DNA of 37,216 nucleotides from a virus: positions 1-37,216 of the IMG/VR virus record IMGVR_UViG_3300043399_000210, one strand, 5' to 3'. Below the pieces are notes generated by a model that worked only from the letters and a program-made list of their open reading frames with translations, ran no database searches and was not told the origin of the DNA. The translations under genes and the position numbers were made by a program. Positions 6,767 to 35,450 of this stretch are shown here, in pieces (position 1 is the first letter of the stretch; each line of letters opens with the position of its first letter).

Positions 6767-7072
6767 ATGGAAACAAACAACACAACAATAGATATGGTAA
6801 ATGGTCTGGCAGAGATTGCAGACTTTATGAATGACGAAGAGCTTACTACAGCTCTTACGTTTATCGCTAAGGTCATTCTTAAGCCAGACATTCCTCCACA
6901 GGTCGCATCTGTAGAGATTGTACGCCTTCAGGCTATCGCCGCTAAGATGCAGTTTAAAGCAACTTGGCTTACCAATGTAGATAAAGGAGATAGAGCGAAA
7001 AAGAATATTTATTACACTGCCGCAGAAGCTATTAACCAGCTTGTGTCAGCTCTTAAGTATATTATTCGCTAA
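6767..7072 (+). CDS. Conserved-looking helical protein, unknown function
   Basis: Mostly alpha-helical, about 101 aa from ATG 6767. An in-frame TTG at 6758 is an alternative start; neither has a good Shine-Dalgarno, but the transcript start predicted from the upstream promoter (about 6747) allows both. The sequence has the pattern of an interaction protein, with a hydrophobic heptad-like middle and a basic KGDRAKKN turn near residue 80. No catalytic motif is visible. Its position right behind a strong promoter and before a nuclease gene suggests a replication or recombination accessory role, which is only inference. Confidence 0.65.
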   Translation: METNNTTIDMVNGLAEIADFMNDEELTTALTFIAKVILKPDIPPQVASVEIVRLQAIAAKMQFKATWLTNVDKGDRAKKNIYYTAAEAINQLVSALKYIIR

Positions 7073-7084
7073 ACTAGTACTATG
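7070..7084 (+). promoter_or_regulatory. Possible leaderless promoter (-10, 6 nt, ATG)
   Basis: TAAACT at 7070-7075 is followed by exactly six bases and then ATG 7082. No Shine-Dalgarno precedes this ATG. The same -10 variant occurs in the promoter at 22783-22811. The spacing matches the leaderless sites elsewhere in the window, but the hexamer is weak. Confidence 0.4.
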
Positions 7085-9698: not shown

Positions 9699-11463
9699 AT
9701 TCCTAGAAGCTCTTAAGACAGATAACTTTAATGAGCGACCTGTAGATGCTCGTACTTTTGTGGAGGGCGAAGACTATCTTGGTCAGCCACCACTGTCAGA
9801 TATTCAGTACGATATCGTTGAGGCTATGAGCCAGATCTACAAGCTAGAAGATCTACAGGAACTCATGGGGGCAACAGAGGGTGCTCGTTATTACAAGAAG
9901 TACACCAAGAACGAAATTATCCTCCAGCTTGGGAAGGGTAGTGGTAAGGACTTTACGTCTACCGTAGCATGTTCATATATCGTATATAAACTACTATGCC
10001 TCAAAGATCCAGCTCGATACTTTGGCAAGCCATCTGGTGATGCTATTGATATTATTAACGTGGCTATCAACGCACAACAGGCTAAGAACGTCTTCTTTAA
10101 GGGCTTTAAGTCCAAGATCGAACGCTCGCCATGGTTTGCTGGTAAGTTCTATGCCAAGGCAGACAGCATTGAGTTTGACCACTCCATTACGGTTTACTCT
10201 GGTCACTCAGAGCGTGAGTCTCACGAGGGTCTAAACCTTATCCTTGCAGTGCTTGACGAGATCTCTGGTTTTGCGACTGAGGTTGGAACTGGTAACGAAC
10301 AGGGTAAGACTGCAGACAACATCTATAAAGCCTTCCGTGCTTCCGTAGACTCTCGTTTCCCAGACTTAGGAAAGGTAGCCCTGCTATCATTCCCTCGTTA
10401 TCCTGGAGACTTTATCTCACAGAGATACGATGCGGTTATCATGGAAAAGGATGTTGCCACAAAGACTCATAAGTTTATTATGAATCCAGATCTTCCAGAA
10501 GATGCAGATGGAAACTCATTGGAAATTTCATGGGATGAAGACACCATTGTTTCATATAAGTATCCAGGGGTATTTGCACTTAAGAGACCAACATGGGTAG
10601 TTAATCCTACTCGTAGCATTGACGACTTTAAGCTTGCATTCTATACAGACCTTGGAGATGCTATGCAACGTTTTGCCTGTATCCCAACATACTCCTCAGA
10701 CGCATTCTTTAAGCAGATTGAGAAGGTCCAGGCTGCAATGACATTGCGTAACCCTTTAGACCAGAATAGACGCTTTGACGAAACATTTAAGCCAGACCCA
10801 GACAAGATCTACTACGTCCATGCTGACCTCGCACAGAAGCACGACAAGTGTGCTGTGGCTATCGCTCACGTTGATAAGTGGGTAAACATTCAGGTAATCA
10901 AGGACTACGAGCAGGTAGCCCCTATCGTAGTAGTAGATGCTGTAGCGTGGTGGGAGCCTCGTAGAGAAGGTCCTGTTAACCTATCAGAAGTAAAGCAGTG
11001 GATCCAGAATCTACGCAGACTTGGATTTAATATCGGCATGGTCTCCTTTGACCGCTGGCAGTCATTTGATATCCAGAACGAGCTGAAGCAGGTAGGTATG
11101 AGAACTGAAACTGTTTCTGTTGCCAAGAAGCACTATGAAGATATGGCAATGCTTGTATATGAAGACCGTCTTGTAATGCCATCAATCGATCTCTTATTCG
11201 AAGAGCTAACAGAACTCAAGATTATCAAACAGAACAAGGTAGACCACCCTCGCAAGTCTTCTAAGGACTTGGCAGACGCTGTGTGTGGTGCTATATTTGG
11301 TGCTATCTCACACACGCCTAAAGACCTTAACCTTGAGGTAGAGGTTCATACGTTTAGAGAAAGACCCAAATCTGCACTTGCGGATCGTCCTAAAGGTGTG
11401 ATAGAATATAAATCCATACCAAACGATGTTCGGGACTATCTTGGACAATTTGACTTACTTTAG
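9679..11463 (+). CDS. Terminase large subunit
   Basis: A 594-aa packaging motor. The ATPase domain has Walker A GKGSGKD at 85-91 and Walker B ILAVLDE ending at D193-E194, with the coupling region after it. The C-terminal RNase H-type nuclease domain starts near YYVHADLA (~375) with its first aspartate, continues with MVSFDRW and ends with SKDLADAVCG as the last acidic site. TTG 9679 has GAGG nine bases upstream (9666-9669) and is preferred; ATG 9688 is an alternative with poor spacing. The 5' end overlaps the small subunit. Confidence 0.93.
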   Translation: MSEMFSEFLEALKTDNFNERPVDARTFVEGEDYLGQPPLSDIQYDIVEAMSQIYKLEDLQELMGATEGARYYKKYTKNEIILQLGKGSGKDFTSTVACSYIVYKLLCLKDPARYFGKPSGDAIDIINVAINAQQAKNVFFKGFKSKIERSPWFAGKFYAKADSIEFDHSITVYSGHSERESHEGLNLILAVLDEISGFATEVGTGNEQGKTADNIYKAFRASVDSRFPDLGKVALLSFPRYPGDFISQRYDAVIMEKDVATKTHKFIMNPDLPEDADGNSLEISWDEDTIVSYKYPGVFALKRPTWVVNPTRSIDDFKLAFYTDLGDAMQRFACIPTYSSDAFFKQIEKVQAAMTLRNPLDQNRRFDETFKPDPDKIYYVHADLAQKHDKCAVAIAHVDKWVNIQVIKDYEQVAPIVVVDAVAWWEPRREGPVNLSEVKQWIQNLRRLGFNIGMVSFDRWQSFDIQNELKQVGMRTETVSVAKKHYEDMAMLVYEDRLVMPSIDLLFEELTELKIIKQNKVDHPRKSSKDLADAVCGAIFGAISHTPKDLNLEVEVHTFRERPKSALADRPKGVIEYKSIPNDVRDYLGQFDLL

Positions 11464-15967: not shown

Positions 15968-15968
15968 C

Positions 15969-15996
15969 TTGACAAACAATTTATCTATGCTATACT
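15969..15996 (+). promoter_or_regulatory. Internal promoter in the tRNA cluster
   Basis: TTGACA (15969-15974), a 16-bp spacer, then TATACT (15991-15996). Exactly six bases later is an ATG (16003), so transcription should begin at or next to it. Confidence 0.78.
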
Positions 15997-15999
15997 AAG

Positions 16000-16096
16000 G
16001 ATATGGAAATGATTATTGACCAGCTAGGCAAACAGCGATTTAAGATGTCGCTTGCCTATTATAGCTGGCAAGCCTAAATCATTATAATTCCATATC
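16000..16096 (+). ncRNA. Candidate structured RNA inside the tRNA cluster
   Basis: About 97 nt that fold into one long nested hairpin. Paired arms: 16000-16008 with 16088-16096 (9 bp, GATATGGAA/TTCCATATC), 16009-16014 with 16077-16082 (6 bp), 16020-16026 with 16062-16068 (CCAGCTA/TAGCTGG), 16027-16031 with 16052-16056 (GGCAA/TTGCC) and 16035-16038 with 16048-16051. A dedicated promoter starts transcription within a few bases of the first arm. The structure ends two bases before tRNA-Trp. It may be a stand-alone small RNA, a processing element, or the leader of tRNA-Trp. Confidence 0.6.
16003..16077 (+). CDS. Possible leaderless 24-codon micro-ORF
   Basis: ATG 16003 to TAA 16077 encodes 24 residues ending in YYSWQA, with one Trp codon near the end. 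The ATG sits six bases after the -10, as in the other leaderless genes of this window, and there is no Shine-Dalgarno. It lies wholly inside the structured RNA and just before tRNA-Trp. It could be a leader peptide, or the frame may be accidental to the RNA fold. Confidence 0.35.
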   Translation: MEMIIDQLGKQRFKMSLAYYSWQA

Positions 16097-16098
16097 TT

Positions 16099-23311: not shown

Positions 23312-23987
23312 GGTACTAGACAAAGGATATATTCGACTTGTTGACACTCTTGGTGACGATTTATCTATCGTTAATGCTGCTCGTGTTTCTTACGATAAGG
23401 AAGCATCTGAATTCACTGAAAAAGATGAACGTCTCATTAACTTCCTCGTCCGTGAGGGTCACACATCGCCCTTTCGCCACGCTGCTCTTACGTTCGAAGT
23501 ATACGCACCGCTGTTTGTTGCACGTCAGTGGTGGAAGTATGCAGTAGGCTCTACCCATGTTGACGATCAGAATGGTTGGAATGAGTCGTCTCGTCGTTAT
23601 GTAACTGAGGATGAAGAGTTTTACGTTCCAAACAAGTACGAGTGGCGTAGTAAGCCTGAGAATAGCAAGCAGGGTAGTGGAGAGCCAGTAGGCAGTAAAA
23701 CTGGTGACTACTTCTACCACGAACTGCTAACAACCATTGACGATGGCGTTAAGTATTACCACGAAGCTATGGATGCTGGAATTGCACCAGAACTAGCTCG
23801 TCTATTCCTACCAGCATATGGTATGTATGTACGCTGGCGTTGGACTGTATCCCTCCAGGGAGCAATGACATTCCTTGAGCAACGTCTAGGACACGATGCA
23901 CAGCTAGAAATCCAGGAGTATGCAAGGGCAGTTCGTAGCTTAACTGAGCAGTCATTCCCACACACAATGAAAGCATTTGGGGTATAA
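23298..23987 (+). CDS. thyX: Flavin-dependent thymidylate synthase ThyX
   Basis: A 229-aa enzyme converting dUMP to dTMP with FAD and methylene-tetrahydrofolate. Visible landmarks: GHTSPFRHAALTFEV (S57, R60, H61), VARQWWK at 74-80 and NESSRRY at 95-101. The classical RHRx7S motif is replaced by a WKYAVGS stretch plus a short insertion before NESSRRY, a variant seen in phage ThyX proteins. LSLQGAMTFLEQR-like and SFPHTMKAF ends are present. The start ATG 23298 overlaps groES; the upstream in-frame ATG 23166 lies inside groES. Confidence 0.93.
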   Translation: MNKIRVLDKGYIRLVDTLGDDLSIVNAARVSYDKEASEFTEKDERLINFLVREGHTSPFRHAALTFEVYAPLFVARQWWKYAVGSTHVDDQNGWNESSRRYVTEDEEFYVPNKYEWRSKPENSKQGSGEPVGSKTGDYFYHELLTTIDDGVKYYHEAMDAGIAPELARLFLPAYGMYVRWRWTVSLQGAMTFLEQRLGHDAQLEIQEYARAVRSLTEQSFPHTMKAFGV

Positions 23988-23997
23988 TAGAATCATG
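23983..23997 (+). promoter_or_regulatory. Leaderless promoter (TATAAT, 6 nt, ATG)
   Basis: TATAAT at 23983-23988 overlaps the thyX stop and is exactly six bases before ATG 23995. No Shine-Dalgarno is present. Confidence 0.6.
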
Positions 23998-24660
23998 AAC
24001 ACAATAGATAGTAGCTATCCTCGTGCCTACTTTGGCGATGAACCAGAGATGTTGGCAGAGGTCACAGTGCCTGTCACAGAGCAGGACAAGAAGTCCCTTG
24101 ACAAGAAGACTAAGACACAACGAAAGACTGCCTCGCCACAGCAGGTAGCCCAGAAGAAGGCTGAGCGACAGAAGCTTGCAATGTACGCAAAGCAAGAGAG
24201 CAAACGTGCTCCAAAAGTCCAGATTGACCAGAAGCTTATTCTCTGGACATGGATCATTGGCATCATCGTTGCCTTCGTATCTTCAGCTGTAGTTTCATTT
24301 AATGGAATCACTGCTGTGGCACAGTTTGTAGGACTCTCAGTAGACTGGATTGGATACCTGTTCTTCTTCTTCATTGAGTTGATGTATCTTCTCTTCCTTA
24401 TGGCGTACTTGCTTCTTGCATCTCGTGTAGACGAAGATGGTAAGCCAGAGCGTACAGCAGGTGCATTCTGGGGCATGTTTTCATTCGGTGCAATTGCAGT
24501 TCTTGCAAACGCATTCCACACAATCGACTTCTGGAACTACGACTTCCTAGAACCACGCATGTGGGCTGGGGTAGTGCTCTCAGTAGCCGCACCTATTGCA
24601 ATCATTAGTGCCTCAAAGATGGCATCACGAGTAGTGTTTGCAAAGGCTATCAAGCTATGA
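23995..24660 (+). CDS. Four-helix membrane protein (SpdB/DUF2637-like topology)
   Basis: A 221-aa protein with a basic, Lys/Gln-rich N-terminus (~1-75, likely cytoplasmic) and four hydrophobic helices (~80-103, ~118-138, ~160-178 and ~186-207). The phrase VGLSVDWIGYLFFFFIELMY recalls SpdB/DUF2637 membrane proteins of actinobacteria and their plasmids, but the resemblance is mainly in topology. The ATG lies six bases after a -10, so the mRNA is probably leaderless. It overlaps the kinase gene. A role in spread or membrane modification is speculative. Confidence 0.65.
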   Translation: MNTIDSSYPRAYFGDEPEMLAEVTVPVTEQDKKSLDKKTKTQRKTASPQQVAQKKAERQKLAMYAKQESKRAPKVQIDQKLILWTWIIGIIVAFVSSAVVSFNGITAVAQFVGLSVDWIGYLFFFFIELMYLLFLMAYLLLASRVDEDGKPERTAGAFWGMFSFGAIAVLANAFHTIDFWNYDFLEPRMWAGVVLSVAAPIAIISASKMASRVVFAKAIKL

Positions 24661-25199
24661 TCGTTGGACTAAGCGGATACGCCCAGAGCGGTAAAGACAC
24701 AGTTGCTAATCATCTTGTAGAGCATTATGGATTCACTCGCATTGCGTTTGCTGATTCCATTCGTGAAGCACTCTATAGGCTGAACCCATCACTTCCAGAT
24801 GTCCCAGATCTTCCAGGAGTTACGCTTAAGTCTGCAGTAGATAGCATGGGCTGGGAGTTTGTAAAGAACATTTCGCCACACACTCGTGCATTGCTACAAC
24901 GTTTTGGTACTGAGGTAGCCAGAGACCTGTGGGACGAAGATTTCTGGGTAGATCTTGCAATGAAGAAGGCTTCTAGTCTAGACAAGGTTGTGATTACTGA
25001 TGTACGATATCCTAACGAGCTGGAGGCTATTTTAAAAGCAAATGGTGATGTCTGGAGAATCATAAAGCCAAACATAGCTCCTGTCAATAGACACGCTTCT
25101 GAGGTTGCACTAGATCACTATCAATTTAATAGAATCATTCTAAATGATACATCACTAGAAAATCTCTACGCAACAGTAGACTATCTAATACAGCACTAA
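24657..25199 (+). CDS. Deoxynucleoside monophosphate kinase
   Basis: A 180-aa P-loop kinase. Walker A is G7-YAQS-G12-K13-D-T; the FADSIREALYRL stretch and the RFGTEVARDLWDEDFWVD lid-like region match T4 gp1-type dNMP kinases. VVITDVRYPNELEAI is the Walker B-like region. It would phosphorylate dTMP, dGMP and related monophosphates, completing the pathway from NrdEF, deaminase and ThyX to dNDPs. The start overlaps the previous stop (ATGA). tRNA-Ile begins six bases after the stop. Confidence 0.9.
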   Translation: MIVGLSGYAQSGKDTVANHLVEHYGFTRIAFADSIREALYRLNPSLPDVPDLPGVTLKSAVDSMGWEFVKNISPHTRALLQRFGTEVARDLWDEDFWVDLAMKKASSLDKVVITDVRYPNELEAILKANGDVWRIIKPNIAPVNRHASEVALDHYQFNRIILNDTSLENLYATVDYLIQH

Positions 25200-25204
25200 G
25201 TCTG

Positions 25205-25281
25205 GGGCAGGTAGCATAAACGGTAAATGCAGGACTCTTATAAGGTCAAGACAGAGGGATCGTTACCCTCCCTGCCTACCA
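25205..25281 (+). tRNA. tRNA-Ile (anticodon TAT)
   Basis: Acceptor GGGCAGG/CCTGCCT (first pair G:T), D-stem GCAT/ATGC, anticodon loop CTTATAA and T-arm GAGGG-ATCGTTA-CCCTC with an unusual first loop base (A instead of T). CCA is encoded. It would read AUA, a rare codon in high-GC hosts. Such a TAT tRNA replaces the lysidine-dependent route. Confidence 0.82.
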
Positions 25282-25354
25282 CCCTCCATAGCTCAGGGGA
25301 TAGAGCGTCGGACTTCTAATCCGTGCGTCGTAGGTTCGAATCCTACTGGGGGGA
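25282..25354 (+). tRNA. tRNA-Arg (anticodon TCT)
   Basis: Acceptor CCCTCCA/TGGGGGG, D-stem GCTC/GAGC, anticodon stem TCGGA/TCCGT with loop CTTCTAA, T-arm GTAGG-TTCGAAT-CCTAC. It reads AGA, rare in high-GC hosts. Confidence 0.93.
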
Positions 25355-25370
25355 CTCATAGAAAGGTAAA

Positions 25371-25388
25371 TGGTATAATACTATTATG
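25371..25388 (+). promoter_or_regulatory. Leaderless extended -10 promoter
   Basis: TGGTATAAT (25371-25379), six bases, ATG 25386. No -35 and no Shine-Dalgarno. Confidence 0.72.
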
Positions 25389-26054
25389 ACAAATAAACTA
25401 GCAATTCTAGTGCCAACTCGTGGTAGACCACAGAACATGGCACGACTCTCAGAGGCACTCAAAAAGACATGCACCTCTGATTATCACCTTTATGTCCGTA
25501 TGGATGATGATGATACTGCTAAGTATCCAGAGATCGAAAATGGAACATACATCACAGGACCAAGAGTCTTCTTTGCTGGCTCTGTAAATGAACTAGCATC
25601 CATTGCTTCTGTGGATGGCTTCACACACATTGCTATTCTTGGAGACGATGTTCTCCCTGAAACAATTGGCTGGGACGATAAGATGATGTCAGCTGTGCCT
25701 GATCTTGGGGTAGCATACGGCAGTGACGGTCTAGAAGAGTTACACGGAGAAGATCTTCCAACACACGTTGTAGTACCCATTGAGATGTATAACCGTCTTG
25801 GCTGGATTGCACTACCTGCACTACGTCACCTGTTCTGTGACAATGTTTGGAGAGAGCTTGGGAAGGCAACTAATTTTATCTACCTTCCAGACGTAAAGCT
25901 TACACACCTTCACAGATGGAATAAGTCTGCACCAGACGATAAGACGTACCAAGAGGCTAATGACAAGATCAAGCGTCAGAAGGATAAGGAAGCCTTCGAA
26001 CTATGGCGTAAGGGTAAGGGTCTTAGAGATGCAAAGAAAGCTTTAGAAGCATGA
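25386..26054 (+). CDS. GT-A (family 2-like) glycosyltransferase
   Basis: A 222-aa protein with the GT-A opening LAILVPTRGRPQNM, an acidic DDDD at 40-43, and GDD at 86-88 as the metal-binding site (ILGDDVLP). The C-terminus is helical and basic. It should transfer a sugar from a nucleotide-sugar donor. Targets in phages include DNA bases, capsid proteins or host surface glycans; nothing here decides between them. It overlaps the GT-B gene by four bases and is followed by a third glycosyltransferase-like gene. Confidence 0.82.
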   Translation: MTNKLAILVPTRGRPQNMARLSEALKKTCTSDYHLYVRMDDDDTAKYPEIENGTYITGPRVFFAGSVNELASIASVDGFTHIAILGDDVLPETIGWDDKMMSAVPDLGVAYGSDGLEELHGEDLPTHVVVPIEMYNRLGWIALPALRHLFCDNVWRELGKATNFIYLPDVKLTHLHRWNKSAPDDKTYQEANDKIKRQKDKEAFELWRKGKGLRDAKKALEA

Positions 26055-27103
26055 GTCTTGTAGCAGTATCGCACGGATATCCACCAATTTGGAATATGGG
26101 TGGAGAAGTATCGTTGCATAGAACTATGGTAGCTGCACGTGGGGATAAGTACGTTTTGACAAAGACAGACAGCCCTTACACTTTTGAGGGGGTACATGCA
26201 GTAAACATTGATACTCCTAACGTACTAGATATTAAGGCAGACCCACGACCTATTGCAAAGCAACTAGAAGAACTAAATGCTAAGGTAGTTATTGGTCAGA
26301 ACGAGCTATCGTTACCAGCAGTTAAGGCTGCAAGCATGGTTGGGGCAGTATCTGTAGTAAATGTACACACACCACCAAAATACGGTAGAGGAATTCAGCA
26401 AGCAGTGATTGACGCTGACTATGCAATTTATAACACACAGACTTCTGCTACACAGTGGGGAGAGCCAAATGCTCTTGTCGTTCATCCACCAATTAGTCCA
26501 CTGCCAAAAGACACGCTGTCTGGTGGAGATGCCTATACGCTGCTTTCGTCACTAGCCAACAAGGGCGTACAGGTCGTTCTTGATCTTGCTAAGCAATACC
26601 CAAATCAAAGATTCATTATTGTAAGATCCCCTGCCGAGCCAACACACGGCATTGAGGATTTAATGGAACAAGCGGCACGACTTCCCAATGTTGAGTTACA
26701 CCCTCGTGTATCTCCAGAAGAGGTTGTAAAATACTTTAAGCAGACAAGGATTCTTCTTGTCCCTTCACGATACGAGACATATGGCATGTCAACAATTGAG
26801 GCTGCAGGATATGGCATTCCAACAGTCCACGTAGATACACCGCATGTTAGGGAGGGTATCGGAGAAGCAGCCATACTAGTACCACCACTAAGCCTAATGG
26901 CTACAGCAGAAGGCATTGAGACTATCGAAGAGAACTACCAGGAGTATGCAGACAAGGCTAGGGCAAGAGCAGAATGGTTGGATGCACGACAGAAGATAGA
27001 GTTAGAGCAGTTTGCAGACTTTATAGATACAGCAACTATCCCTAAGAACAAGAGTGATAGAGCTAGAAAAGTCCTTAAGGCATCTAGACGACGCTACTCG
27101 TAG
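26051..27103 (+). CDS. GT-B (family 4-like) glycosyltransferase
   Basis: A 350-aa two-domain GT-B enzyme. The N-terminal acceptor domain opens LVAVSHGYPPIWNMGGEVSL; the C-terminal donor domain has LLVPSRYETYGMSTIEAAG, with the E242-x7-E250 pair that binds the nucleotide sugar, and YGIPTVHVDTPHVREGI. It may add a second sugar after the upstream GT-A enzyme. Its 3' end overlaps by ten bases the 3' end of a leftward gene of the same functional class. Confidence 0.88.
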   Translation: MSLVAVSHGYPPIWNMGGEVSLHRTMVAARGDKYVLTKTDSPYTFEGVHAVNIDTPNVLDIKADPRPIAKQLEELNAKVVIGQNELSLPAVKAASMVGAVSVVNVHTPPKYGRGIQQAVIDADYAIYNTQTSATQWGEPNALVVHPPISPLPKDTLSGGDAYTLLSSLANKGVQVVLDLAKQYPNQRFIIVRSPAEPTHGIEDLMEQAARLPNVELHPRVSPEEVVKYFKQTRILLVPSRYETYGMSTIEAAGYGIPTVHVDTPHVREGIGEAAILVPPLSLMATAEGIETIEENYQEYADKARARAEWLDARQKIELEQFADFIDTATIPKNKSDRARKVLKASRRRYS

Positions 27104-27795
27104 TACTCATATTTTGATGGCTCTGGGAATAAATCTTTGAGTAGATTGTTATAAACAGTATCAAAGGAAGTATCCTGTGTAGACAAGAACGGATATCTTT
27201 TACTTGCATAATCGTAACTTTTAAACTGAAGATTTCCTTCTTCATATACCTTTACATCTTCGATCTGCTCTAATGTGTCCTCAGAGACAAAGCGATTGCC
27301 GTAGTTAGATCTCCACATTACCTCGTCTCCAAGCACCTGAATAAGCAGGTCTTTTTGCACAGGCATTGGGACATGCAGCTCAAAGTCTAGCATTGTCTTT
27401 CCTCTATGCTTTAAGAAGCGGTACAGGTCAACAAGTTGTGTAACGTATGCAGGAGAAGCCTTGTGCTTACGATACTGTAGAACCTTGTCCCTGAGCGTAC
27501 CACCATAGTAATGCTTGATATCATCAATCTCTCTAACAAAGATAAAGTCGTCGTTCATTACTACAATATCATTAGGTATCTTAATATTCTTACAGGCAAG
27601 GGCTAGACTGTTTTTTACATTAGAGAATCGATTGCTATTCTGCTCAGACTTTATGTAGTTTCCAATGTACCAGTCTGGCTTACCACCAACAACCCAAACG
27701 GTAGCGTCAGGATAGAACTTCTCAATCGATCTAAGCGAATATCTAAGCTCTTCATTCTTGCCATTCTTGCATACATATACAAATGTTTTACCCAT
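27094..27795 (-). CDS. Stealth/capsule-type phosphotransferase-like protein
   Basis: A 233-aa protein on the minus strand. NDD at 81-83 in VVMNDDFIFV and the later DFELHVPMPVQK and WRSNYGNRF segments follow the order of conserved regions in Stealth-type sugar-phosphate transferases and related GT-A enzymes. It lies tail to tail with the GT-B gene, completing a three-gene glycosylation set. Its ATG is six bases after a TGTTATAAT element, so the mRNA should be leaderless. Target unknown. Confidence 0.7.
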   Translation of the reverse strand: MGKTFVYVCKNGKNEELRYSLRSIEKFYPDATVWVVGGKPDWYIGNYIKSEQNSNRFSNVKNSLALACKNIKIPNDIVVMNDDFIFVREIDDIKHYYGGTLRDKVLQYRKHKASPAYVTQLVDLYRFLKHRGKTMLDFELHVPMPVQKDLLIQVLGDEVMWRSNYGNRFVSEDTLEQIEDVKVYEEGNLQFKSYDYASKRYPFLSTQDTSFDTVYNNLLKDLFPEPSKYEYYE

Positions 27796-27831
27796 ATATC
27801 AATTATAACATTTGGTATAATGGTTATGATG
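27793..27831. promoter_or_regulatory. Compact divergent leaderless promoter pair
   Basis: On the minus strand, TGTTATAAT (27810 to 27802) is six bases before ATG 27795. On the plus strand, TGGTATAAT (27813-27821) is seven bases before ATG 27829. The two extended -10 elements are only two bases apart, and the start codons about 33 bp apart. Neither gene has a Shine-Dalgarno. Confidence 0.75.
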
Positions 27832-28089
27832 TCAATTACAGAACATTTACCAGCTCTGCAACGATATAAAGAAGAGCAAGGTTGCACTGATTGTGGAATG
27901 AACTACCCCCATTTTGTTCTAGAATTTGACCATAGACCAGGTGAACGTAAGTTTGGGAATGTCTATCGTGTACTCAAGAAGTACGGTGCTGAGAAGGCGT
28001 GGGCAGAGGTAAAGAAGTGTGACGTAGTGTGCTCAAACTGCCATAAGCTAAGAACCTACGAGAGAGAACAAGAGCTACTAGCCTCTTAG
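27829..28089 (+). CDS. HNH endonuclease-like protein
   Basis: About 86 aa from ATG 27829 (ATG 27826 and 27820 are also in frame, but the latter overlaps the -10). It has C-x2-C (CTDCGMNYP), the FDHRPG histidine and a second C-x2-C-H (VCSNCHKLRT), the zinc-stabilised HNH fold. Small HNH proteins in phages may be homing nucleases or packaging cofactors. It is divergent from the Stealth-like gene and overlaps the 3' end of the next leftward gene by 12 bases. Confidence 0.85.
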   Translation: MSITEHLPALQRYKEEQGCTDCGMNYPHFVLEFDHRPGERKFGNVYRVLKKYGAEKAWAEVKKCDVVCSNCHKLRTYEREQELLAS

Positions 28090-28278
28090 AATACGACCCA
28101 AAGCCCAGTCAAGGACAGATACGGCTACATGATCGCCACGTGAATCCTTTTCCTGAATAAGCATTCTAATCTCGTTGAGGAATCGACTACGCTCCTCCAT
28201 AATTCCAGCCTCATAAAGCTCAATAAGGTGATTTTCGATTATTGCCATATGGGTTTTCCCATCTCTTCCAATGTTCAT
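28078..28278 (-). CDS. Small helical protein, unknown function
   Basis: A 66-aa helical protein. Its middle (EAGIMEERSRFLNEIRMLI) resembles the G-x3-ER-x-RII-x-LL pattern shared by the three tandem genes at 31.4-31.9 kb, but it lacks their cysteines. TATACT on the minus strand (28290 to 28285) lies exactly six bases before its ATG, so it is probably leaderless. It is divergent from the next gene. Confidence 0.6.
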   Translation of the reverse strand: MNIGRDGKTHMAIIENHLIELYEAGIMEERSRFLNEIRMLIQEKDSRGDHVAVSVLDWALGRILRG

Positions 28279-28317
28279 ATACCAAGTATACAGTATTTCT
28301 GGTATAATTGGGGTATG
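28276..28317. promoter_or_regulatory. Second compact divergent leaderless promoter pair
   Basis: Minus strand: TATACT (28290 to 28285), six bases, ATG 28278. Plus strand: TGGTATAAT (28300-28308), six bases, ATG 28315. No Shine-Dalgarno on either side. Start codons are 37 bp apart. Confidence 0.72.
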
Positions 28318-28440
28318 ACAAATTTCGAATACCCTATCTTCCCAGACCGCACATATCGAATCGATATTGACGGTGAAAAGTACTACATTACTGGTGCAAA
28401 TCTTATTGCGATCGCACTTGACAAAATTGACGAGGAATGA
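28315..28440 (+). CDS. Small leaderless protein, unknown function
   Basis: 41 aa, starting at ATG 28315 six bases after TGGTATAAT. It consists of beta-like segments (TYRIDIDGEKYYITG) and a short acidic helix. A longer in-frame reading from 28228 would cross the promoter and is rejected. No family recognised. Confidence 0.6.
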   Translation: MTNFEYPIFPDRTYRIDIDGEKYYITGANLIAIALDKIDEE

Positions 28441-28451
28441 GATAATGGGGT

Positions 28452-28694
28452 ATGAAGAAAATATTTATACCCACGCCTCGTAATCTTAAGCGTAGAGACG
28501 AACTCATGCGTAAGCTTGGTGCTCGTGACATGAAAGAACGTCTTGTTGATTTCGTAGAAACTCGCATGGAAAATGGCATTATCGAAGTTGAGGATGCCTA
28601 CAAGCAAGGGCATCCACAGATGGGAGACTATCTTAGTGGTGCTGTTGCTGCCTGTAATGCAATGATCAGAACAATTAGGAGCAATCAGTTCTAA
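28452..28694 (+). CDS. Small basic/helical protein, unknown function
   Basis: 80 aa. A basic N-terminus (KKIFIPTPRNLKRRDELMRKL) is followed by helices with AAVAACNAM-like hydrophobic stretches. A GATAAT five bases before ATG 28452 might be another leaderless signal, but it is weaker than the others, and no clear Shine-Dalgarno is at the right distance. The stop overlaps the next start. Confidence 0.6.
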   Translation: MKKIFIPTPRNLKRRDELMRKLGARDMKERLVDFVETRMENGIIEVEDAYKQGHPQMGDYLSGAVAACNAMIRTIRSNQF

Positions 28695-30207: not shown

Positions 30208-31353
30208 ATGACCAAGAAGGTATTTCAGACTTCCGCACACAATTTGCAGGACGACTTCGAAATCTACACTGTATATCTTATGCAGAAGATTGCAGAGGAT
30301 GCCAAGAAGCATATCACTGTTAAGTCTGCCTCTGTTCTCAAGGACTTCGAATCAGCACTCGCTGCACATGGACTAAACCACGCACACACAATGTCTGGCG
30401 ATGGTCTCGTTTACCGTAACAATCTTATTGCTGGAGTCAATGACTTCATGGACCGTCTGTTTGCTAAAATGCCAGACAACAAGTTTGACTTTACTCACGT
30501 TGCTAAAGAGTTGCGTAATCAGAACAAGAAGGGTGACATCGTAATCACTGTAGACGATGGCTCTGAGATCTCTTTGTCACTCAAGAACTACAAGACACCC
30601 ATTGGCACCATTCAGGTATCTTCTGGGACGTTCCAATCTTTCATCGTAAACTTTTTGTTTGAGGCAGCTGGCGTGGGTACATGGATCAATCCTGTAGACA
30701 ATACTACCTTTAACAATCGTAATGCAGAGAAGCGTAATGCCGTACTTGTAGAGAACGGATATGCATCAGTCGTCACCATGATTGACAAGATGGATACTCT
30801 TAGCAAGAACATGCGTACACGCTTCATTGACAGCGAGGAGTTCCGATTCTACTCTGAGCAAGAGTTTGACAAGGCTCGTAAAGATGTTGGTCTTGCTGGT
30901 CTTAAGATTGCTAAAGAGTTTGTAGACTTGCTTCCTGCAGAGATCGTAAAAGCACGACTCCTCAAAATGACAGGGTTTGACGGTAACGAGGATATCCTTA
31001 TTCTTGGCAAGGGTACTGTTGCAGACAGCATTACTGACGAAGCATTCCAGGAACTTTCTACTAAGGTTCGTAATGCCAATATCGTGGTCACTATTGAGGG
31101 GCAGAGCCTTGTGTTTGCTTTCCAAGATGCGGAGGGCATTGATGTACTCAGGGTAAACGTACCATTCACTATCAATAAGAATGGTGCTTGGTACATGGAT
31201 GGAGAACAGTACGAAGGTACTCGCTTCCACAAGAAGGAAGGCGTAGAGCTTGCATGGGGAGAACGTCGTCCCAAGAAGTCACGAGAGATGGCTACATCAA
31301 TCAATACCTACGTTGACTTTGGCAAGACTGATGTAGTTCGAAAGGTAGCATAA
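30208..31353 (+). CDS. Unknown 381-aa protein, possible PD-(D/E)XK-like nuclease
   Basis: Start ATG 30208, with GGAG at 30199-30202; the longer frame from 30154 begins inside the promoter. The only motif I can see is GDIVITVDDGSEISLSLKNY (residues 109-128): D110, an acidic turn, then S-L-K126. This resembles the D...(D/E/S)xK core of some type II restriction-type nucleases. The following helix (SSGTFQSFIVNFLFEA) also fits. The N- and C-terminal parts are unfamiliar. It is the largest gene of the small-gene region and has the strongest promoter there, so it is probably highly expressed. Confidence 0.55.
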   Translation: MTKKVFQTSAHNLQDDFEIYTVYLMQKIAEDAKKHITVKSASVLKDFESALAAHGLNHAHTMSGDGLVYRNNLIAGVNDFMDRLFAKMPDNKFDFTHVAKELRNQNKKGDIVITVDDGSEISLSLKNYKTPIGTIQVSSGTFQSFIVNFLFEAAGVGTWINPVDNTTFNNRNAEKRNAVLVENGYASVVTMIDKMDTLSKNMRTRFIDSEEFRFYSEQEFDKARKDVGLAGLKIAKEFVDLLPAEIVKARLLKMTGFDGNEDILILGKGTVADSITDEAFQELSTKVRNANIVVTIEGQSLVFAFQDAEGIDVLRVNVPFTINKNGAWYMDGEQYEGTRFHKKEGVELAWGERRPKKSREMATSINTYVDFGKTDVVRKVA

Positions 31354-31559
31354 TGACTGAATCTGAAAAACAATGGGCATGGTTTGATGCTGGGGTAAAG
31401 CAAGAGCGTGAACGCATCATTGCACTACTCGAAGCCAGAATTGACGAATGTAATTGGGAAGAAGTCAGTAAAGACACGGGCTACGATGATGGACCTTGTG
31501 AAATGTGCGAGGAGACCCTTATCAATATCGCACTTATCAAGGGAGAGAACAATGACTAA
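31353..31559 (+). CDS. RERIIALL / C-x2-C small protein, copy 1
   Basis: 68 aa. It carries the block G-x3-ERERIIALLEAR, then C-x2-C (PCEMCEE) and ends in NIALIKGEN. The two genes downstream share the same block, cysteine pair and ending, so the three are tandem paralogues. The start overlaps the previous stop (TAATG), the end overlaps copy 2. The cysteine pairs might bind zinc. Function unknown. Confidence 0.75.
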   Translation: MTESEKQWAWFDAGVKQERERIIALLEARIDECNWEEVSKDTGYDDGPCEMCEETLINIALIKGENND

Positions 31560-31734
31560 TGAAACTTACTGGATGGGATTTGATCGTGGTCAGGAAGCAG
31601 AGCGTGAACGGATCATTGCACTACTAGACTTAGAACATTCTGAGTACACATATCAACACCAAGAAAACAAGGGAGCATATATTGATGATTGTTCTGCTTG
31701 TTTCGCTATTGCTATTATAAAGGGAGAGGACTAA
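31552..31734 (+). CDS. RERIIALL / C-x2-C small protein, copy 2
   Basis: 60 aa from ATG 31552 (an earlier in-frame ATG at 31408 is inside copy 1). It shows GFDRGQEAERERIIALLD, C-x2-C (DCSACFA) and the ending AIIKGED. It overlaps both copy 1 and copy 3 by a few bases. It is the most similar to copy 1 in the helix. Confidence 0.75.
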   Translation: MTNETYWMGFDRGQEAERERIIALLDLEHSEYTYQHQENKGAYIDDCSACFAIAIIKGED

Positions 31735-31913
31735 TGGCTAGTCCAGAGATCGAACAACTCCAAGAAGCAATGGAACTAGGTGCATATCGTGAACGTCAAC
31801 GCATCATTGCACTGCTCAACCACGAGTATTGGCATCACATTAGCTATCTTTCAGACATTCATTACGATTGCCTAATGTGTGAGGCTATCGCACTTATCAA
31901 GGGGGATAACTAA
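31734..31913 (+). CDS. RERIIALL / C-x2-C small protein, copy 3
   Basis: 59 aa. It shows ELGAYRERQRIIALLNHE, C-x2-C (DCLMCEA) and the ending AIALIKGDN. It has an extra His-rich stretch (EYWHHISYL) between the helix and the cysteines, possibly extending a metal site. The start overlaps copy 2 (TAATG). Confidence 0.75.
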   Translation: MASPEIEQLQEAMELGAYRERQRIIALLNHEYWHHISYLSDIHYDCLMCEAIALIKGDN

Positions 31914-35245: not shown

Positions 35246-35274
35246 ATTTTACAGCAAGTGGGGGTATTTGTCAA
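35246..35274 (-). promoter_or_regulatory. Leftward consensus promoter
   Basis: On the minus strand: TTGACA (35274 to 35269), 17 bp, TAAAAT (35251 to 35246). It drives the 177-aa gene and overlaps the 3' end of the gene before it. Confidence 0.8.
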
Positions 35275-35438
35275 GAACCAAATTTGTTGGTAATGTGTTC
35301 ATATGCCTCAATAATCCCAGAGAGATATCCAGCATAGTCAGGGTCGTCTCCTCCAAGCACGGCATCTTCATAGCAGTCGATGATGTCTGGGAGTTGTTCG
35401 TTGATATAGTCAATGATGTTGGGGTCAAATTGTTTCAT
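35271..35438 (-). CDS. Small acidic protein, unknown function (leaderless)
   Basis: 55 aa from ATG 35438 (minus strand), exactly six bases after TATAAT (35450 to 35445); no Shine-Dalgarno. Helical and acidic (NEQLPDIIDCYEDAVLGGDD). The longer reading from 35483 crosses that promoter. Function unknown. Confidence 0.65.
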   Translation of the reverse strand: MKQFDPNIIDYINEQLPDIIDCYEDAVLGGDDPDYAGYLSGIIEAYEHITNKFGS

Positions 35439-35450
35439 AGTTACATTATA
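35436..35450 (-). promoter_or_regulatory. Leftward leaderless promoter
   Basis: Minus strand TATAAT (35450 to 35445), six bases, ATG 35438. It overlaps the last codons of the zinc mini-protein. Confidence 0.6.

Follow-up and report, generated by a model that had tools for sequence, protein, structure and literature searches.

The window, by which we mean the whole 37,216-base stretch of DNA analysed, is a 37 kb record of a freshwater-type phage encoding a primase-like Toprim protein, DnaE, RecA, a RuvC-like protein, ribonucleotide reductase, NrdI, glutaredoxin, a GroES-like protein, ThyX and 14 tRNA genes. All 40 of the 40 ThyX matches listed were Streptomyces phages, whilst 79 of the 80 best genomic matches to NrdA bore actinobacterial titles, mostly of Micrococcales, among them that of the freshwater Rhodoluna limnophila. 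These matches suggest that the host is probably an actinobacterium. Several genes of the window begin a few bases downstream of a hexamer resembling a -10 promoter element, and the sites considered here are as follows (TATAMT denotes TATAAT or TATACT):

7070..7084, plus strand: TAAACT-N6-ATG before a 268 aa ORF at 7082; a weaker candidate
15968..16005, plus strand: TTGACA-16-TATACT-N6-ATG within the tRNA array, starting a 24-codon ORF
23983..23997, plus strand: TATAAT-AGAATC-ATG; putative -10 and start of a 221 aa membrane protein (23995-24660) with DUF2637-like relatives
25371..25388, plus strand: TGG-TATAAT-ACTATT-ATG; putative extended -10 and start of a glycosyltransferase (25386-26054), 3′ of two tRNA genes
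27793..27810, minus strand: TGT-TATAAT-TGATAT-ATG; putative extended -10 and start of a PHROG 7999 protein (27094-27795)
27813..27831, plus strand: TGG-TATAAT-N7-ATG; putative extended -10 and start of a small HNH endonuclease (27829-28089)
28276..28290, minus strand: TATACT-TGGTAT-ATG; putative -10 and start of a 66 aa protein (28078-28278)
28300..28317, plus strand: TGG-TATAAT-TGGGGT-ATG; putative extended -10 and start of a 41 aa protein (28315-28440)
28418..28454, plus strand: TTGACA-17-GATAAT-N5-ATG before an 80 aa ORF at 28452
35436..35450, minus strand: TATAAT-GTAACT-ATG; putative -10 and start of a 55 aa ORF (35271-35438), the weakest of the six ORF-starting exact matches described below

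The original prediction had placed TATACT/TATAAT-N6-ATG at 15991+, 23983+, 25374+, 28303+, 27807-, 28290- and 35450-, TAAACT-N6-ATG at 7070+ and TATAAT-N7-ATG at 27816+, and each of these is present. It lacked one exact match, 17510-, which lies antisense within a gene, opens a frame of 5 codons and is probably due to chance. The search against shuffled sequence that it proposed puts the motif above chance: TATAMT-N6-ATG occurs 8 times on the two strands of the window, against a mean of 0.84 and a maximum of 4 in 100 dinucleotide shuffles. Thus 8 of the 47 TATAMT sites have an ATG exactly six bases on, and each other spacing from N0 to N30 holds 0-3. Six of the eight matches start ORFs of 41-233 codons. 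For five of these six the starts of relatives also carry the motif; for the sixth, 35450-, one relative (L015, 50% identity) was seen, and it is without the motif. ThyX and glycosyltransferase searches gave 29 related loci (L009-L037).

The hexamer at 23983 includes the TAA stop of thyX, and the motif of the 23995 gene is shared by three distant relatives and absent in close ones such as L016. In the L016 (~10660-10700) and L036 (~10690-10740) orthologues a -10 is kept at 9-10 bases from the ATG, with an SD-like run (TATAATAGGAGATAAGATG, TATAATGGAGGAGCAATG) in between, and these copies are possibly intermediate forms linking leaderless and leadered starts. The glycosyltransferase has TATAMT at 5 or 6 bases in 8 of 9 close orthologues, and its TG is invariant in the six aligned. 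The start of the PHROG 7999 protein is arranged in the same way in L009, L010, L017, L019 and L023. Divergent from it is the HNH gene, whose N7 spacing is conserved in the window, L015, L016, L036, L037, L009 and others. Likewise, 28290- and 28303+ are divergent promoters in a common 36-base gap, and the start of the 28315-28440 gene is placed identically in L015 and L016. GATAAT occupies the same place before the 28452 ORF in both of these loci, and we take this start to be probably near-leaderless and of the -35 class. The 7082 ORF had no orthologue among the related contigs compared.

We also observed consecutive small ORFs with similar motifs (ERERIIALL...) at 31353-31910 of the window, a pattern that points to a small gene duplicated in tandem; small ORFs of this kind occur 3′ of the motif in L027 and L032. 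Moreover, a minus-strand gene of L033 (13403-14440) for a PstS-like phosphate-binding protein, which may be an auxiliary metabolic gene, has TATAAT-N6-ATG at its start.

The site at 15991 is a likely promoter. Its 24-codon ORF overlaps a strong RNA hairpin (16003-16098; -30.7 kcal/mol, z = -4.35), for which no Rfam match above threshold was found. This coincidence makes the ORF doubtful and 15991 a poor illustration of a leaderless start. The hairpin is near-identical in a second phage contig (L110, ~309-390) except that six bases of the loop are deleted without loss of the frame, and the deletion data fit either a small gene or a structured RNA. A reading in which the promoters as a whole drive small RNAs, structured or non-coding, and the ATG is incidental is plausible here, given the overlap of promoter and ORF with a hairpin in a tRNA array. 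Elsewhere, however, protein families that recur begin at the ATG at a constant distance, and we regard this reading as highly improbable.

Spacing and gene context in related phages

Across the 29 related loci, 91 ORFs of at least 40 codons start six bases after TATAMT (duplicate sites removed and the window excluded), with 16 at N5, 16 at N7 and ~4 at other spacings. The base preceding the ATG is T at 71 of 102 unique sites, giving a pyrimidine-purine start at the A. A real -10 could nevertheless direct transcription from 2-5 bases before the ATG, or from a few bases inside the gene, in which case the genes would be near-leaderless or their true start codons would lie further in. The enrichment at N5 and N7 and the N7 kept by the HNH family speak for such short leaders, but N6 is about six times commoner than either and transcription favours starts at an A preceded by T; we therefore consider short leaders unlikely as the general case. 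Other start codons showed little or no peak when sought at N6 in the relatives (GTG 5, TTG 0).

About 10% of genes in this phage and its relatives carry the motif. Their context was analysed in 719 genes, window included, defined by a simple codon-usage gene caller that is crude and places start sites approximately. In this set the signal without a Shine-Dalgarno (SD) was most frequent where genes diverge (35% of starts), followed by same-strand starts after a gap of 15-60 bases (18%) and after longer gaps (10%), and was least frequent within operons (2.8%). The control spacings N12 and N3 gave 5 and 1 genes. An SD-like match was also present in only 3 of the 74 signal carriers, and the two initiation modes proposed to run side by side in this phage are, at the level of sequence, borne out.

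The proposal of a dedicated gene set stands in part. Some families do recur, motif-bearing members making up 8/10 of the 28278- family, 7/9 of the glycosyltransferases and 8/13 of the Dps-like proteins, with none in 41 other families of at least 4 members. However, the strongest correlate of the signal that we found is first place in a transcription unit, and carriers in Streptomyces phages include virion genes (head-to-tail adaptor), so that they would not form one functional class. It has also to be asked whether the glycosyltransferases, the Dps-like protein, HNH nucleases and small ORFs make up a translational regulon, kept leaderless and translated when host initiation is altered or shut down; we think this improbable. 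A reading of leaderless genes as mobile cassettes, i.e. movable single-gene modules, was dropped, since their upstream neighbours are more varied (0.71 vs 0.48 distinct neighbours per member) and their downstream neighbours are not (0.40 vs 0.48).

The peak is also seen in whole Streptomyces phages, namely Wofford (5 N6 sites), EGole (7-9), Riptide (5) and Karimac (5-6), which are mutually related so that their counts are not independent. The corresponding N9 counts are 1, 0, 2 and 0, and EGole and Karimac have 0-1 at other spacings. Seven annotated CDSs start exactly on the predicted ATG (Wofford 30582, 44749 and 88534; EGole 24148, 31167, 45366 and 85065). Amongst the sites checked, no CDS is annotated at the ATG of Wofford 63352 and 83431 or EGole 63967 and 5085-; used as an annotation rule, the signal flags the first three as candidate starts. 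It further suggests that the start of the EGole (MK494112.1) HNH endonuclease should be moved from the annotated 113552 to an in-frame ATG 30 bases 3′, at 113582, which follows TATAATTGGCAC.

Contigs carrying PHROG 7999 (L039-L098, low-GC freshwater phage contigs) had 43-44 sites at N6 and ~7 elsewhere with an ORF filter, and no clear peak without it. These had been taken as an unrelated negative control and were dropped as such, sharing some gene families with the window's clade. Their N6 peak indicates that the feature extends beyond the ThyX clade. T4, SPO1, S-PM2 and KVP40 did not peak clearly at N6, and least so when only TGn sites were counted (raw N6:N9 counts of 12:11, 11:5, 9:8 and 5:2, respectively).

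Promoter type and conservation footprints

With the exception of 15991, the sites of the window had been described as lacking a -35, and the best -35 indeed has 3-4 mismatches in 6 at the other sites and 0 at 15991. Overlooked was an extended -10, TGn lying directly 5′ of the hexamer at 25374, 27807-, 28303 and 27816; at 15991 both TGC and a -35 are present. The 102 unique sites divide into 49 with TGn and no -35, 21 with a -35 and no TGn, 2 with both and 30 with neither. Amongst sites without a -35, TGn is found at 49/79, compared with 93/657 other TATAMT sites (odds ratio 9.9, p = 3e-19). This enrichment points to the missing -35 being largely replaced by an extended -10.

Footprints of three families (glycosyltransferase, PHROG 7999 and Dps-like) show a TG without variation and a hexamer of 91-96% identity, whereas positions -42..-16 show 26-29% identity, roughly the random level. 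The members were selected by their hexamer, so that its identity is built in; the TG was not selected for. It is not conserved in the 28278- family and a family of 95 aa.

AT-rich DNA by start codons would by chance yield TATAAT-like words at various spacings. The DNA of this phage is AT-rich (the GC content of the window is 44%) and the 17510- match is of such a kind. Against this, both the window and its relatives peak at a single spacing, AT-rich non-actinobacterial phages have no clear peak and the TG is conserved in orthologues. Chance or composition was ruled out by these spacing and footprint controls, and the likelihood that we would give it is negligible.

Middle promoters of T4 lack a -35. 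Most of the sites described here do so too, and they could be phage-specific middle promoters at which an activator binds upstream, the -10 only positions it and the distance to the ATG is secondary. However, no conserved upstream block that could be a T4-type activator box near -30 was visible in six family footprints (-42..-16 at 26-41% identity), and the reading that invokes such a box was rejected. Moreover, the distance to the ATG is the sharpest feature of these sites. We consider middle promoters very unlikely.

Proposed leaderless initiation and its relation to known systems

In standard numbering the sigma-A hexamer occupies positions -12 to -7. With six bases between hexamer and ATG, the A of the ATG would be +1. 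Leaderless genes are reported to exceed 20% in Actinobacteria (Zheng et al. 2011, PMC3160421), and the same study gives TANNNT ~12 bases before the start as their signature. This abundance, together with the spacing and the near-absence of SD matches, makes leaderless initiation the best reading. We judge it very probable that the TATAMT hexamers are sigma-A-type -10 elements giving mRNAs that start at, or within 1-2 bases of, the ATG. The leaderless starts originally proposed are thus supported by the distance that would put +1 on the A, by conservation in orthologues and by the rarity of SD matches in carriers.

We hypothesise that roughly half of the genes are read by host RNA polymerase from an extended -10 (TGnTATAMT) and about one in five from a -35 combined with a -10, transcription beginning on the first base of the start codon or one or two bases away. 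The resulting mRNA would have no 5′ leader and the ribosome would initiate on the 5′-terminal AUG, as in leaderless genes of Actinobacteria. Operon-internal genes of these phages would mostly use SD or coupled starts. Such a module would be compact, taking 21 bases from the TG to the last base of the ATG, fewer than a promoter, leader and ribosome site, and could allow expression at strand switches, beside tRNA genes or overlapping the end of the previous gene.

Some observations count against the leaderless model. Neither TGn nor a good -35 is present at the 30 sites noted above, and the signal is missing in some orthologues, such as those of the 23995 gene in L016 and L036. Six actinobacterial genomes, which may not include the host's, contain almost no strict TATAMT-N6-ATG. 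Lastly, these phages use ATG almost only, whilst GUG leaderless starts were reported to be more efficient in Mycobacterium smegmatis and Streptomyces coelicolor (PMC9031893).

Taken together, these data indicate a group of actinobacterial phages that uses leaderless initiation systematically, and by their sequences the leaderless genes look like a conserved part of the group's gene expression. TGnTATAMT-N6-ATG offers a compact, testable promoter-plus-start module. Since culturable Streptomyces phages share the signal, leaderless expression in infection is directly measurable. If its specificity holds in a larger panel, the signal could help to infer actinobacterial hosts of environmental phage contigs.

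That this is a new case of a known initiation mode, and not a new mechanism, is well supported. We found no description of such a leaderless set in the open-access literature on leaderless phage genes, Streptomyces phages and freshwater actinophages. The nearest bacterial counterparts are the TA-led genes of Actinobacteria and Deinococcus-Thermus (PMC3160421), which likewise have a -10-like signal ~12 bases before the start codon and no SD. Those genes are bacterial and their TANNNT is degenerate, whereas the phage genes have a near-consensus TATAMT, a sharp N6 and ATG almost only, at ~10% of genes. Extended -10 promoters of sigma-70/sigma-A are alike in that TGn by the hexamer replaces the -35, and differ in that here the element is tied to a fixed six-base distance to the ATG. 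Amongst phages, lambda cI is cited as a leaderless gene in PMC3160421 and PMC9031893, and gene 90 of mycobacteriophage Adephagia is predicted to be leaderless (PMC11373665). For both, as here, the transcript is taken to start at the start codon. They are, however, single genes, whereas the phages described here each carry many such genes, with conservation across the clade.
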